The translations under genes were made by a program, and so were the position numbers. 64,000 nt of DNA. Source: Pseudomonas sp. FP198 (lineage in GTDB: Bacteria > Pseudomonadota > Gammaproteobacteria > Pseudomonadales > Pseudomonadaceae). Positions 37,861 to 41,296 of the stretch are shown in pieces (position 1 is the first letter of the stretch; every line of letters begins with the position of its first letter). The stretch lies in contig NZ_CP117452.1 in the NCBI RefSeq assembly GCF_030687895.1, positions 2,373,501 to 2,437,500 of the forward strand. The letters run 5' to 3'. The notes beneath the pieces are model-generated. The model ran no database searches. It was not told the DNA's origin and saw only the letters and a program-made list of their open reading frames with translations.

Positions 37861-39618
37861 CTAGGGCCCGGTCTTAATGTCATCAAGCAACAATTTGATC
37901 GCTGGCCTGTCGACCAGCTCCCGCCAGTGCCCGTCGTCAATGATTGCACCGTTGTGCAGGACAATCACCCGATCAAAGCGCAACAGATGATCAAAATCAT
38001 GGGTGACACAGATCAACCCTTGTTTTGAGAAAATATCAAACAGCAGGTCCCATAAGGCGTTGGTCAGCCCGGGCTCGATTGATGCACTAGGCTCATCGAA
38101 CAAGTTGAATCGTCCAGGCTTGTTGATAAGACGCAGCAGCGACAGACGCTTGGCTTCACCTCCTGAAATATTCGATGCGTGTTCACCGATGGTCCGGTCA
38201 GAAACGATTGTTTGTAGCTGCAGCCGACGTATTGCCTGGTCGAGGCGAGACGACGATTTAGCGCCGAATAGAACGGAACGTTCAAAGGGACCTTCCAAAA
38301 AACGGGGCTGTTGAGGGCAATACCTCAACGAATCCAAATGAACGCGAGGGTTCAACAGGGAAACCGGGGTGCCATCGATACTGAGCTGATTTCGCGTTTC
38401 CCGGTCGAGGCCTGCGAGAACCTCCAATAAAGTAGACTTGCCTGCACCGCTCTGGCCGATGATCGCCACTGATTGACACTGGATGAAAGTCAGCGCTTGC
38501 GTAATCGACAATCGCACGTCGTCGTTTTCGGTAAGTACGCATGGCTGCAGAATCAGTGTCGATGATTCCCGAAAAGAGACCTCCGATTTCCGATCGCAAT
38601 GGTCAAAGTTCGGGAGCGAAAGCAGGCTTCGAAGCCGGCGCTGATCGGCAAGAAACTGATCCGTTACCCGATAACCTTCCGTCAACGCTGCGATATTCAG
38701 CAGATAGCTTCCGGCGATTGAAAAAATGGCGACCAGCTGCCCGACACTGATACTGGGCTGGCTCGAAAGTTGATCAATAACCCCCCATCCTAGCAATCCG
38801 CCCGTGGAGAGGCTGACGAACAGAATCTTGGCGGCACTCAAAAAGCCACCTGAGGTTGCAGCGGCAACCGCGGCGTCGGCGTAGCCTTTAAAAGCCTCGT
38901 TTAACGGAAGTGTCGCGGTAGACTCGGCATTTTCCAGCTTTATTGCTTTGCCGGCATTGAGTGTGTTGTACAAATGAGCGCTCAATTCATCTTCCTGCTC
39001 GTTGACGGTATCAATGTGTTTTCTGCGCCATCTGATAATCCTGTGGGTAGCAGCCAGATAGATGATTCCTAAACCGGTCATTCCCGCAAATACTTCACCG
39101 CCACCCATGTAAAAAAACGCACCGCCAACAATCAGGAATTCCAGGCACAACGGCAGTCCCACGGTGACAAAAAACGTCAATAGCTGCTCGTGAGCGTTAA
39201 TCCCACGCTCGACTGATTTTATGAAGTGGCCTATTCGCCATGAGTTGAATCGAGCAAACTCCTTTCGCATCAGGTTTGTCAGCCACTCAATAGACGCGGC
39301 CATGACAACCTGTTGAACCAGTTTTGATAGAAAATGGATTTGCAGTGGGCTGATAATCGCTTGGGCGCATCCGGCGACAACAAGGCCCGCCGTTAGCATG
39401 AGCAATGTGTTCGCCGTTGCATCACTTTTGCCATATAACGTGTCGATGATGGTCCCTAGAAGCAAGGGCGGGGCGAGCGCTACCAACTTGAGAGTTATTA
39501 GTGTTGCGATGGTCGTTAACAGAAGGGTCGTATGTTTTTTGCAGGCTGTTCTAATAAATGTTTGCATAGGGTGCATACGATCATCTGTGAGTTTTTTGGA
39601 GGGTTCGACGATCAGCAA
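37861..39618 (-). CDS. ABC exporter (fused permease and ATPase) of a YcaO peptide locus
   Basis: The 585-residue half-transporter has about six membrane helices between residues 30 and 312 and a C-terminal nucleotide-binding domain. That domain has Walker A GQSGAGKST (388-396), Q-loop PQQP (435-438), signature NISGGEAKR (483-491), Walker B FNLFDEP (504-510) and switch His540. No N-terminal C39 peptidase is present, so it is not a bacteriocin-processing exporter. The TTG start at 39618 overlaps the ycaO stop (TTGCTGA), suggesting coupled translation. The ATG at 39576 is an alternative. By position it should export the modified peptide and may confer self-immunity. Confidence 0.85.
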   Translation of the reverse strand: MLIVEPSKKLTDDRMHPMQTFIRTACKKHTTLLLTTIATLITLKLVALAPPLLLGTIIDTLYGKSDATANTLLMLTAGLVVAGCAQAIISPLQIHFLSKLVQQVVMAASIEWLTNLMRKEFARFNSWRIGHFIKSVERGINAHEQLLTFFVTVGLPLCLEFLIVGGAFFYMGGGEVFAGMTGLGIIYLAATHRIIRWRRKHIDTVNEQEDELSAHLYNTLNAGKAIKLENAESTATLPLNEAFKGYADAAVAAATSGGFLSAAKILFVSLSTGGLLGWGVIDQLSSQPSISVGQLVAIFSIAGSYLLNIAALTEGYRVTDQFLADQRRLRSLLSLPNFDHCDRKSEVSFRESSTLILQPCVLTENDDVRLSITQALTFIQCQSVAIIGQSGAGKSTLLEVLAGLDRETRNQLSIDGTPVSLLNPRVHLDSLRYCPQQPRFLEGPFERSVLFGAKSSSRLDQAIRRLQLQTIVSDRTIGEHASNISGGEAKRLSLLRLINKPGRFNLFDEPSASIEPGLTNALWDLLFDIFSKQGLICVTHDFDHLLRFDRVIVLHNGAIIDDGHWRELVDRPAIKLLLDDIKTGP

Positions 39619-40781
39619 TTGCGCAATATGTGCTGGGGCACAACAAGTCGCCCATTTCGAATGATATTGAAGCGCTCTAATCCTGGGATATAGGCTTGAG
39701 CGACGGTGCTGTTTTTTGGGTAGCGCGCTACAGTTCTGTGAAATATTTTCTTACCGGAACCTGATAGGACGTTATGTAGGGTTTCCAATTGTGTTGAGAC
39801 GGACTCGGTGTGGCCATGTGACGGGCAGTCAAGTTCAGGGAGCTTTAAGGTTTTAACCGGAGCCAAGTCAATCAGATTTTTCAGTTTGTCTGAGCGTGAC
39901 AATAGGTTGAAAGTTTTTCTGTCCGTTGACTCTTCAAAAACGTCGTACAAATCCCTGGATTGGAATTGTTCTGTCACCGCTCTCTGAATGGCGATGCAGA
40001 TGTCCAGCGAGCAGCCTGAGCCAATAGGCGATAGGTGCTGGTCTCCTGGGCCCGCTTTGGGAAATGCAACGGCAAAGTAAACGGAAAATACGTCCTTCAC
40101 GATAATAATCTGGAGTTCATCGGCAGGCTCCAAGGCGGACGAGTTGTTTAACAGCGCCTTGGCCAGCAAACCCTTCGATGGGTTATACAGTTGCATGTTG
40201 GGGCCGATTCCGCATACCGCCATGAAGAAACGCGACAACACATGTCGTTCGATTACTTCCTGGATACCATGCAGTAGCGCTTCGTTTTCTGTACAACCGA
40301 AAGCAATGCCTGAATTGGATGAGTAACGAGACAGGAATTGTAGGGTAGGGCTAGCGTGATCGGAAATGTTTTGGGCCACCGCGGGGCATAAAAGAGCGCT
40401 TGGAACGATCAGCTTTTCTTTTTTGTCCAGTGAGGTGAGGGTGAAACAATCTATCGGCTCCTCACTGCGGGGAAGTCCGATAAAGAAGCCGTCGTGTGAA
40501 GTTGCCTCCTGAGTGGCAATATCGTCGGTCTGGTGCCATGTCGACTCATGGGTTTGAAAGGTGCTGTAGTGCTCGATGCTTTCAGCCAGCGCGCCTATTA
40601 ATGCATCCGGCCCTTTGCCCGCGCCTGACTGAATGAAATTGTTGTCGCCATCAAAAATCTCCGCAGTTGCTACCAGTCTTGACGGAGTTGTATATCGTGC
40701 CTCAGCTCGGAAATCGAGCGCGTGAAGAGTGGACATGATATTGAATAAGGCTTCGGGAGCTGTTAGTTCTCGTTCAGACAT
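39612..40781 (-). CDS. Stand-alone YcaO domain protein (RiPP-modifying enzyme candidate)
   Basis: The 389-residue protein has YcaO hallmarks: SGAGKGPDALIGALAESIEH at residues 52-71 (Glu67 and Glu70 as ATP/magnesium ligands) and SNSGIAFGCTENEALLHG (155-172) leading to EVIERH with Glu175 and Glu178. YcaO enzymes phosphorylate backbone amides to install azolines, thioamides or amidines in peptides. No cyclodehydratase partner, TfuA, dehydrogenase or recognition domain is encoded nearby. The C-terminus (VPQHILRNC) lacks the proline-rich tail of azoline-forming members. A ribosome site AGAGG lies upstream. The DNA is AT-richer than the flanks. The chemistry is not predictable. Confidence 0.85.
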   Translation of the reverse strand: MSERELTAPEALFNIMSTLHALDFRAEARYTTPSRLVATAEIFDGDNNFIQSGAGKGPDALIGALAESIEHYSTFQTHESTWHQTDDIATQEATSHDGFFIGLPRSEEPIDCFTLTSLDKKEKLIVPSALLCPAVAQNISDHASPTLQFLSRYSSNSGIAFGCTENEALLHGIQEVIERHVLSRFFMAVCGIGPNMQLYNPSKGLLAKALLNNSSALEPADELQIIIVKDVFSVYFAVAFPKAGPGDQHLSPIGSGCSLDICIAIQRAVTEQFQSRDLYDVFEESTDRKTFNLLSRSDKLKNLIDLAPVKTLKLPELDCPSHGHTESVSTQLETLHNVLSGSGKKIFHRTVARYPKNSTVAQAYIPGLERFNIIRNGRLVVPQHILRNC

Positions 40782-40800
40782 GGCAACCTCTGGTTTGCTG

Positions 40801-40830
40801 AGCGCCGAAAGGCATAAACCTTTCGGCGCT
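40801..40830. promoter_or_regulatory. Perfect 12-bp hairpin between the peptide gene and ycaO
   Basis: AGCGCCGAAAGG (40801-40812) and CCTTTCGGCGCT (40819-40830) pair perfectly around a CATAAA loop. It sits 28 bases after the peptide stop and 19 bases before the ycaO start, with no T-run. It therefore looks like a partial terminator or an RNA-stability hairpin that would let more peptide than enzyme be made. Confidence 0.75.
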
Positions 40831-40858
40831 GCTTAGGGCACTTGATCGATCAGTGACT

Positions 40859-40972
40859 TCAGTTGGTCAGAGAGGCGAAAAAGTTTGCTTCAGTTAACAG
40901 AAGTCCTTTGGAAAAGCCCATGGCCTGCGGCAAGCCGTCAAAGGTATTTATTTCAGAGCGTTTATTGCCCAT
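40859..40972 (-). CDS. Candidate RiPP precursor peptide (37 aa)
   Basis: On the minus strand an ATG at 40972 follows a strong AGAGGAG ribosome site at nine-base spacing and opens 37 codons ending in TGA. The product begins MGNKRSEINTFDGLPQAMG and ends FSKGLLLTEANFFASLTN. It is cysteine-free, with a polar N-terminal half and a more hydrophobic Ser/Thr-containing C-terminal half. It is the first frame of a putative peptide-ycaO-ABC operon. Codons such as ATA and TTA are unlike those of neighbouring core genes. There is no clear double-glycine leader site. I recognise no family, and precursor status is inferred from position, size and ribosome site. Confidence 0.65.
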   Translation of the reverse strand: MGNKRSEINTFDGLPQAMGFSKGLLLTEANFFASLTN

Positions 40973-41296
40973 ATCGTTTTACTCCTCTGTTGATGACTCA
41001 GTGTCGCGTCGCGATCACCTGACTTGCGCGGTTGTGTGCAAGTGCATAATTAATAACAGTAGGCTTTTGGATGGGCTAGGGTGCAACTTCCGATGCTTGC
41101 GTAGGTTTGGTCTTGGTGAACAGTAGGACGCGCCTGTAAGAAACCGGTTTTTCTGTTGAAACTTCGCTTTTTGCTTGTCCAATTCAATGGGTTGAGATGT
41201 TTACTCATTCTCGAAAGGAGAGGGTGCGAGAGTAATTAGCGTGATCTGGGCCTGAGGAGCGCCAGTCATTCATCAAATTTCGGCATAGGTAGAACG
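40973..41296. other. AT-rich upstream region of the peptide operon
   Basis: This gap should hold the operon promoter. On the minus strand it shows AT-rich stretches (TATTAAT near 41047-41056) without a convincing -35/-10 pair. A perfect palindrome AAACCGGTTT lies at 41141-41150. A 52-codon minus-strand frame (41050-41208) without a ribosome site is also present and is treated as doubtful. Nothing else is recognised. Confidence 0.4.

Follow-up and report, generated by a model that had tools for sequence, protein, structure and literature searches.

What does a YcaO enzyme act on, and at which end of its substrate, when its gene lies between one for a 37-residue peptide and one for an ABC exporter? 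The question is raised by a locus in Pseudomonas sp. FP198, whose genome is a single contig of 5.86 Mb, where the three genes follow each other on the minus strand of the 64,000-nucleotide stretch analyzed here (the window) in the order peptide, ycaO, ABC exporter. This gene trio is real and is inherited together, and it appears, judging by its sequence, to give rise in some Pseudomonas to a small modified and exported peptide of a kind for which no description came to light, with the N-terminal and not the C-terminal part of the precursor perhaps becoming the product. We put at slightly better than even the chances that the trio is a cassette for a ribosomally synthesized and post-translationally modified peptide (RiPP), with an N-terminal core, a C-terminal follower, a single partner-free YcaO and an ABC exporter.

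The candidate precursor gene (40859..40972, minus strand; MGNKRSEINTFDGLPQAMGFSKGLLLTEANFFASLTN) has an ATG start with AGGAG upstream, and its 37-residue product has no match in Pfam and no NCBIfam family at E ≤ 1. The stand-alone YcaO (39612..40781, minus strand; 389 aa) scores 95.4 bits against PF02624, for which the Pfam cut-off is 25.7, and so carries the domain of the YcaO superfamily. The exporter gene (37861..39618, minus strand; 585 aa) encodes a PF00664 membrane domain (ABC_membrane) and a PF00005 ATPase (ABC_tran), both above their Pfam cut-offs; unlike C39-type bacteriocin exporters, which have a C39 peptidase domain, it shows none in Pfam at E ≤ 1. Among the NCBIfam matches listed for the proteins of the trio, no model is above its cut-off. 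An earlier note on this DNA had proposed this one-strand order, which is borne out by the coordinates, the Pfam domains and the recurrence of the peptide across genomes. It had also described an overlap of ycaO with the ABC gene; the start codon of the latter is uncertain, and the overlap of 7 nt holds with a TTG start (39618) that has no evident ribosome-binding site, and gives way to a short gap if the in-frame ATG at 39573 is used.

The three genes recur as a set across the genus. A YcaO search of 398 genus genomes gave matches in 53, and 40 loci were fetched from 39 genomes; an ABC gene similar to that of the window follows the YcaO in 24 of these loci and not in the other 16. Peptides fitting MGx[KR]R[ST]E lie upstream in all 24 ABC-paired loci and in the window, i.e. 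the YcaO-ABC pair is accompanied by the peptide in 25 of 25 such genomes. Thirteen of the 53 matching genomes were left unfetched, among them G151, in which peptide and YcaO were seen by coordinates only and the ABC gene was not looked at, and which stands beyond the 25. A second scan, with an alignment as query and on contigs partly from the same genomes, gave at least 33 loci from 80 stretches with the pattern; among the matches listed, peptide, YcaO and ABC gene are in order at 33 of 33 loci, and the titles are all Pseudomonas (a first contig scan with one protein as query returned no matches). In the combined set of 58 loci, 42 of them distinct (16 repeat another locus) and with 41 distinct peptides, a short peptide precedes the YcaO and an ABC exporter follows it at every locus amid varying neighbors, and all 58 belong to Pseudomonas or to the window's genus. 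The earlier note had suggested checking whether the three genes occur together, and would have given up its RiPP reading on finding ycaO homologues consistently without the peptide, or an unconserved peptide frame; the peptide is present at all 58 loci, its frame is conserved, and thus a conserved precursor gene adjoining a peptide-modifying enzyme, the general mark of a RiPP locus, is found throughout.

Searching in the reverse direction, a profile of 23 peptides has matches at E ≤ 6.6e-8 in 25 of the 398 genus genomes, all of them adjoining this YcaO (in G151, which is among these 25, as judged by coordinates); at the weak end of this test, one trio locus (G336) scores 0.03, behind a match of 0.018 in a genome that gave no match in the YcaO search. 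The genes have also diverged in step: for the 38 distinct YcaOs kept from the 54 of 58 loci inside the length filters, distances between peptides correlate with those between YcaOs (r = 0.87) and those between YcaOs with those between ABC proteins (r = 0.95), and none of 2000 permutations reached as high a value. Beyond the genus, a YcaO search of 369 genomes of the class (E ≤ 1e-15) gave four matches, including the genome's own, and neither the open reading frames (ORFs) of L113 nor the part of L114's that was read included a peptide MGx[KR]R[ST]E ahead of the YcaO, L115 being left unread. The more distant YcaO of L113 has, by ORF reading, a sensor histidine kinase-like gene on either side. 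Three cassettes appear to be decaying, with an in-frame stop in the YcaO (L045), a YcaO broken in two where the frame changes (L050) and a YcaO truncated along with the tail of the peptide (L059).

The peptide frame is under purifying selection. In 31 close, equal-length and non-independent pairs, nonsynonymous divergence (dN) is 0.01-0.19, and synonymous divergence (dS), computable in 30, exceeds it in 30 of 30. Substitutions at codon positions 1, 2 and 3 number 63, 53 and 176 in 12 pairs, and in nine of these the peptide is better conserved than both the preceding 150 nt and the following gap. Counted over 39 distinct peptides (L059 and L060, at 64-65 aa, were set aside from the 41), M1, G2, R5 and E7 are invariant, and positions 4 (K in 28, R in 11), 6 (S in 30, T in 9) and 8 (I in 38, V in 1) are each limited to two residues, giving the N-terminal consensus MGx[KR]R[ST]E[IV] of what we call family 1. 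A linker of 12-17 variable residues leads to a tail in which a Glu, and a Phe at E+3, are kept in all 39. Position 6, always Ser or Thr, is the sole cyclisable position kept throughout the family, and Cys occurs in one peptide of the 39. On grounds of conservation, the core of the window peptide would be GNKRSEI (residues 2-8; 40949..40969, minus strand), and on those of the tail motif its follower would be LLLTEANFFASLTN (residues 24-37; 40862..40903, minus strand).

The predicted fold of the YcaO has as its closest solved structure, at 18% identity, MJ1094, a YcaO solved with peptide and lacking a fused recognition domain; the top NCBIfam model is that of the McrA-glycine thioamidation YcaO, at 54.5 bits far under its cut-off of 365. 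Residues E67, E70, E175, R179, E271 and Q274 are invariant in 67 rows, and we take them to fit the ATP site of YcaO enzymes. The protein ends without a proline-rich tail, and it is the one PF02624 match in the whole genome. As for partners, no PF07812 (TfuA) match was found in the genome by a search that did match in one control genome; cyclo_dehyd_2 (the E1-type cyclodehydratase) has one genome match below cut-off (26.5 of 36.9 bits), likewise in several controls; and the genome search with ocin_ThiF had no match in any control genome. Moreover, when ORFs of at least 90 aa within about 4-5 kb were clustered across 25 loci (mechanical ORFs, including wrong-strand ones), the YcaO and the ABC protein were the only clusters common to 25 of 25, the next commonest occurring in six. 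The lack of partner genes remarked on in the earlier note is thus upheld, both across the loci and, for TfuA, in the genome.

Related YcaOs extend the picture beyond the earlier note, which mentions neither these sister families nor a possible core-first, follower-last precursor; it takes comparison to see them. The 16 YcaOs without the ABC gene have peptides at the same place in the loci that were read. In family 2 (L061-L071), a peptide MGYxxSxNANKxxEL...LQLTExExAELxAE precedes a related YcaO, methyltransferase-like and prolyl-aminopeptidase-like genes were each called in 8 of 11 loci (mechanical ORFs), and no similar ABC gene lies directly downstream. In family 3 (L074-L076), the peptide is MGx[YWF]CCMYINEF...FTPEExAVLAE, and an enzyme of the cystathionine-gamma-synthase family, dependent on pyridoxal phosphate (PLP), is encoded directly downstream of the YcaO in 3 of 3 loci. 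One example of each sister-family enzyme was scanned, and all NCBIfam matches are below cut-off. Two further N-terminal types, MSYMLSWLAN in L072 and MGYLRVYSSKLNEL in L073, stand before related YcaOs, L073 with a methyltransferase-like gene; the hydrolase was called in neither. A database search gave 77 sister peptides, 76 of them distinct and from Pseudomonas wherever the name gives the organism. Gly2 is present in 39 of 39 family-1 peptides and in 74 of 76 sister peptides whose other N-terminal residues differ, and a broad tail motif, hydrophobic-[TSL]-x-x-E-x-x-x-hydrophobic, is found in 39/39 peptides of family 1, 54/60 of family 2 and 9/10 of family 3, against 1-6% in shuffles (7 of the 77 sister peptides, being long or outside the class regex, were left out). 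The motif was formulated with the three families already in view, and the only fresh test of it is BotA, the bottromycin precursor, whose sequence scores 116 bits against the bottromycin precursor model NF033414 and contains the motif as LSALEMEEL.

How might such a cassette work? Removal of Met would expose Gly1 and leave a core G-x-K/R-R-S/T-E-I, while the amphipathic C-terminal follower would be recognized by the YcaO. The lone enzyme, with neither an E1-like nor a TfuA partner, would phosphorylate the backbone amide between Arg and Ser/Thr, upon which the Ser/Thr hydroxyl would close a (methyl)oxazoline with loss of 18 Da; alternatively, the freed Gly1 amine would capture the same carbonyl, giving a four-residue macroamidine, again minus 18 Da. 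The product would leave through the ABC exporter, either intact or after trimming by housekeeping peptidases. The most likely chemistry, as far as the sequences can indicate, is thus a dehydration at the Arg-Ser/Thr amide to either ring. The azoline is favored by the absolute Ser/Thr6 of family 1 and the Cys at that place in family 3, and the amidine by the near-invariant Gly2 of all families and by the family-2 peptides that have no Ser6. Both may hold in sequence, azoline and then amidine, since for klebsazolicin and streptamidine a ring on the neighboring Ser is discussed as an amidine intermediate in passages of PMC8442711. We infer the end of the core, the site and type of the reaction, the cleavage, the export and the purpose of the product, as well as the completeness of the pathway as three genes.

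Several observations weigh against this scheme. The cassette contains no dedicated peptidase, follower-removing or Met-removing enzyme, and the peptide of L072 begins MS, not MG. Position 6 is Ser in 48, Cys in 10, Thr in 1 and another residue in 17 of the sister peptides; family 2 tolerates the loss of Ser there, which speaks against an azoline at that place as the chemistry of the whole clade. A strict form of the tail motif, with Thr or Ser at E-3, is present in 54/60 and 9/10 peptides of families 2 and 3 and in 5/39 of family 1, the other 34 of which carry Leu, and hhalign gave no significant match between the family-1 and family-2 peptide profiles, so that the short motif has to carry the idea of a shared follower by itself. 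Finally, a second near-constant Ser/Thr stands at E-1 of the tail in 35 of 39 peptides, and position 6 is therefore not the sole candidate site.

This last point gives slightly less weight to a core at the N-terminus and slightly more to the conventional order, in which the constant MGx[KR]R[ST]EI would be a very short leader and the linker or C-terminal tail the core. Leaders are usually N-terminal and conserved, and the N-terminus is the most constant part of family 1. After the invariant Glu, however, the tails (SLTN, LNLL, YFID, AKSEY) share no Ser, Thr or Cys, E-1 itself is without Ser/Thr in 4 of 39 peptides, and across the sister families it is the N-terminus that differs, with MG and the tail motif retained; we regard the conventional order as unlikely, though as the alternative most deserving of attention. 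A different reaction on the peptide, a backbone thioamide (+16) such as that made by the TfuA-free MJ1094 and the E. coli YcaO, is kept in contention by MJ1094 being the nearest fold and the McrA-glycine thioamidation YcaO the top NCBIfam model, and by the thioamidation of uL16 by the YcaO of E. coli, which has no TfuA, as stated in part of PMC13063428. It would leave the constant Ser/Thr and Gly2 unexplained, in cassettes that share no further gene and a genome without TfuA, and we think it improbable.

The peptide might instead serve regulation, as a leader peptide that, together with a hairpin, attenuates translation or transcription of ycaO-abc. A conserved hairpin does lie between a small ORF and ycaO, immediately ahead of the latter: in the window this is a perfect stem of 12 bp (40801..40830, minus strand), in a peptide-ycaO gap that spans 53-80 nt in most loci, and a perfect stem of at least 10 pairs is found in the gap of 31 of 41 loci, with sequences that differ between lineages. 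In 19 sequences picked for diversity from 39 intergenic ones and aligned, 9 of 9 predicted pairs show double compensatory changes, and for 7 of these 9 pairs there is also a break or gap in 1-4 sequences. In peptide operons, however, it is ordinary for a hairpin to follow the precursor gene; that of the window has no T-run, the peptide is conserved residue by residue at its two ends across YcaOs of ~35% identity, and with a purely regulatory peptide the YcaO of a cassette that occurs at different sites would have no substrate. A leader-peptide role is accordingly very improbable to us, and the hairpin may rather stabilize the precursor message or lower ycaO expression. Lower still do we place the idea that the YcaO is an ATP-dependent peptidase with the precursor as its substrate, an activity given in the title of 7u58 (MusD).

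Returning to the RiPP cassette with an N-terminal core, we entertain, tentatively and with more doubt than belief, a wider proposal: a new minimal follower-type class of YcaO RiPPs in Gram-negatives, in which a single enzyme plus an exporter would convert the N-terminal hexa- or heptapeptide of a 37-mer to a Gly1-Arg4 macroamidine through the adjacent Ser/Thr, and whose sister families in Pseudomonas would swap the core and the tailoring gene and keep the YcaO and the follower. The swapped parts would be the cores MGYxxSxNAN and MGxxCCMYINEF, with the methyltransferase and prolyl-aminopeptidase-like hydrolase or the PLP enzyme. A four-residue Gly1-Arg4 macroamidine has the ring size of bottromycin.

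Upstream of the peptide gene, a conserved block TCCTAC-N8-AAGA-N5-CCTAC-N8-CGGAAGT (41086..41128, minus strand) is the single site in the genome at ≤3 mismatches; these 43 nt are nearly intact in the nearest relatives and no better kept than control in distant ones, and a block with the repeated TCCTAC stands before the peptide gene in the window and in L037-L050. An extended -10-like box, TGTTATTAAT (41049..41058, minus strand), was picked out by resemblance; a sigma-70 scan of the upstream region did not list it and gave no more sites than in shuffles. The inverted repeat ACTTGC-N10-GCAAGT (41022..41043, minus strand) would fall within the peptide gene's presumed 5' leader, and the two upstream matches in Rfam are both below their gathering scores.

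The surroundings of the trio differ from locus to locus. The ten neighbors scanned in the window encode a hydroxyacid dehydrogenase, an MFS protein, PfkB, LacI, MoxR, DUF58, DUF4381, VWA and TPR proteins and one without a family; the MFS gene is an ordinary one, and no E1-like, TfuA, ubiquitin-like or methyltransferase gene is among the ten. Where the window has moxR/DUF58 (Pfam), other loci have dnaB-like, serine-hydroxymethyltransferase-like and other genes by sequence reading. Since the YcaO and ABC genes are shared amid differing neighbors, the trio seems to travel as one unit, and to be a self-contained cassette that has moved between chromosomal sites; the G+C contents of its genes (0.456, 0.496 and 0.511, against 0.623 for the window) were counted, together with the varying neighbors, in favor of this reading. 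The upstream hydroxyacid dehydrogenase was found neither within 1.5 kb of moxR in 11 relatives nor in a stretch as short in the window's own genome, and a plasmid search gave no match.

A literature search, whose scope took in subscription papers only partly, found no recognizable description of this cassette. Most YcaO proteins are of unknown function according to passages of PMC8442711, knowledge of stand-alone D proteins is very scant, and that of clusters with a stand-alone YcaO limited, according to part of a survey of TOMMs, the thiazole/oxazole-modified microcins (PMC4603692), and a 2020 survey omitted stand-alone D proteins, as noted in a section of PMC7136475. A two-protein system with a 37-residue substrate should be reconstitutable by one co-expression in E. 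coli, which would make it possible to ask directly by what means a lone YcaO recognizes its substrate and picks azoline, amidine or thioamide, with the several core families on related YcaOs as natural experiments.

Each RiPP family compared has a defining feature that the cassette lacks. Microcin B17-type and other azol(in)e peptides (LAP/TOMM) involve an E1-like partner or a dehydrogenase, neither of which is shared by the trio cassettes, and the window has neither a Cys-rich core nor the proline-rich YcaO tail. The Pseudomonas YcaO-TfuA-ThiF clusters come from the same genus and combine a putative peptide with a YcaO, but the TfuA, ubiquitin-like, E1/ThiF, MFS and methyltransferase genes listed for them in part of PMC8719888 contrast with a genome without TfuA and a lone ordinary MFS gene nearby; with no PF07812 match in the genome, membership of the thioamitides is ruled out as well. 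MJ1094 is alike in fold, length and the absence of a fused recognition domain, and unlike in that its substrate is an enzyme, not a co-encoded 37-mer. Streptamidine (ami) is likewise a YcaO pathway with a small peptide, in which the amidine is formed from the amine of the N-terminus and the carbonyl under attack is adjoined by a conserved Ser; AmiA, however, consists of a leader, a core and a follower, and the pathway draws on AmiB as well as a hydrolase and a dehydrogenase, according to passages of PMC8442711, the main text of which does not contain the word Pseudomonas. In the cassettes no third gene that could be such a partner or dehydrogenase recurs in more than 6 of 25 loci, AmiB not having been searched by sequence.

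A parallel in layout is offered by bottromycin, whose precursor, a notable exception among RiPPs, has an N-terminal core and a follower (passages of PMC4979651 and PMC7136475). Both systems have a precursor starting MG, a partner-free YcaO and a transporter, and a core-first layout is what we propose here. Bottromycin clusters nevertheless hold two stand-alone YcaO genes, against one PF02624 match in this whole genome, and, as listed in part of PMC7136475, methyltransferases, an amidohydrolase, a Met-removing enzyme and a cytochrome, whereas the trio cassettes share no third gene. NF033414 does not match the window peptide, and Cys is as rare in family 1 as given above; membership is ruled out by this non-match and by the number of YcaOs. 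If the core-first reading of the Pseudomonas peptide is true, the layout of bottromycin would become less isolated as an exception.

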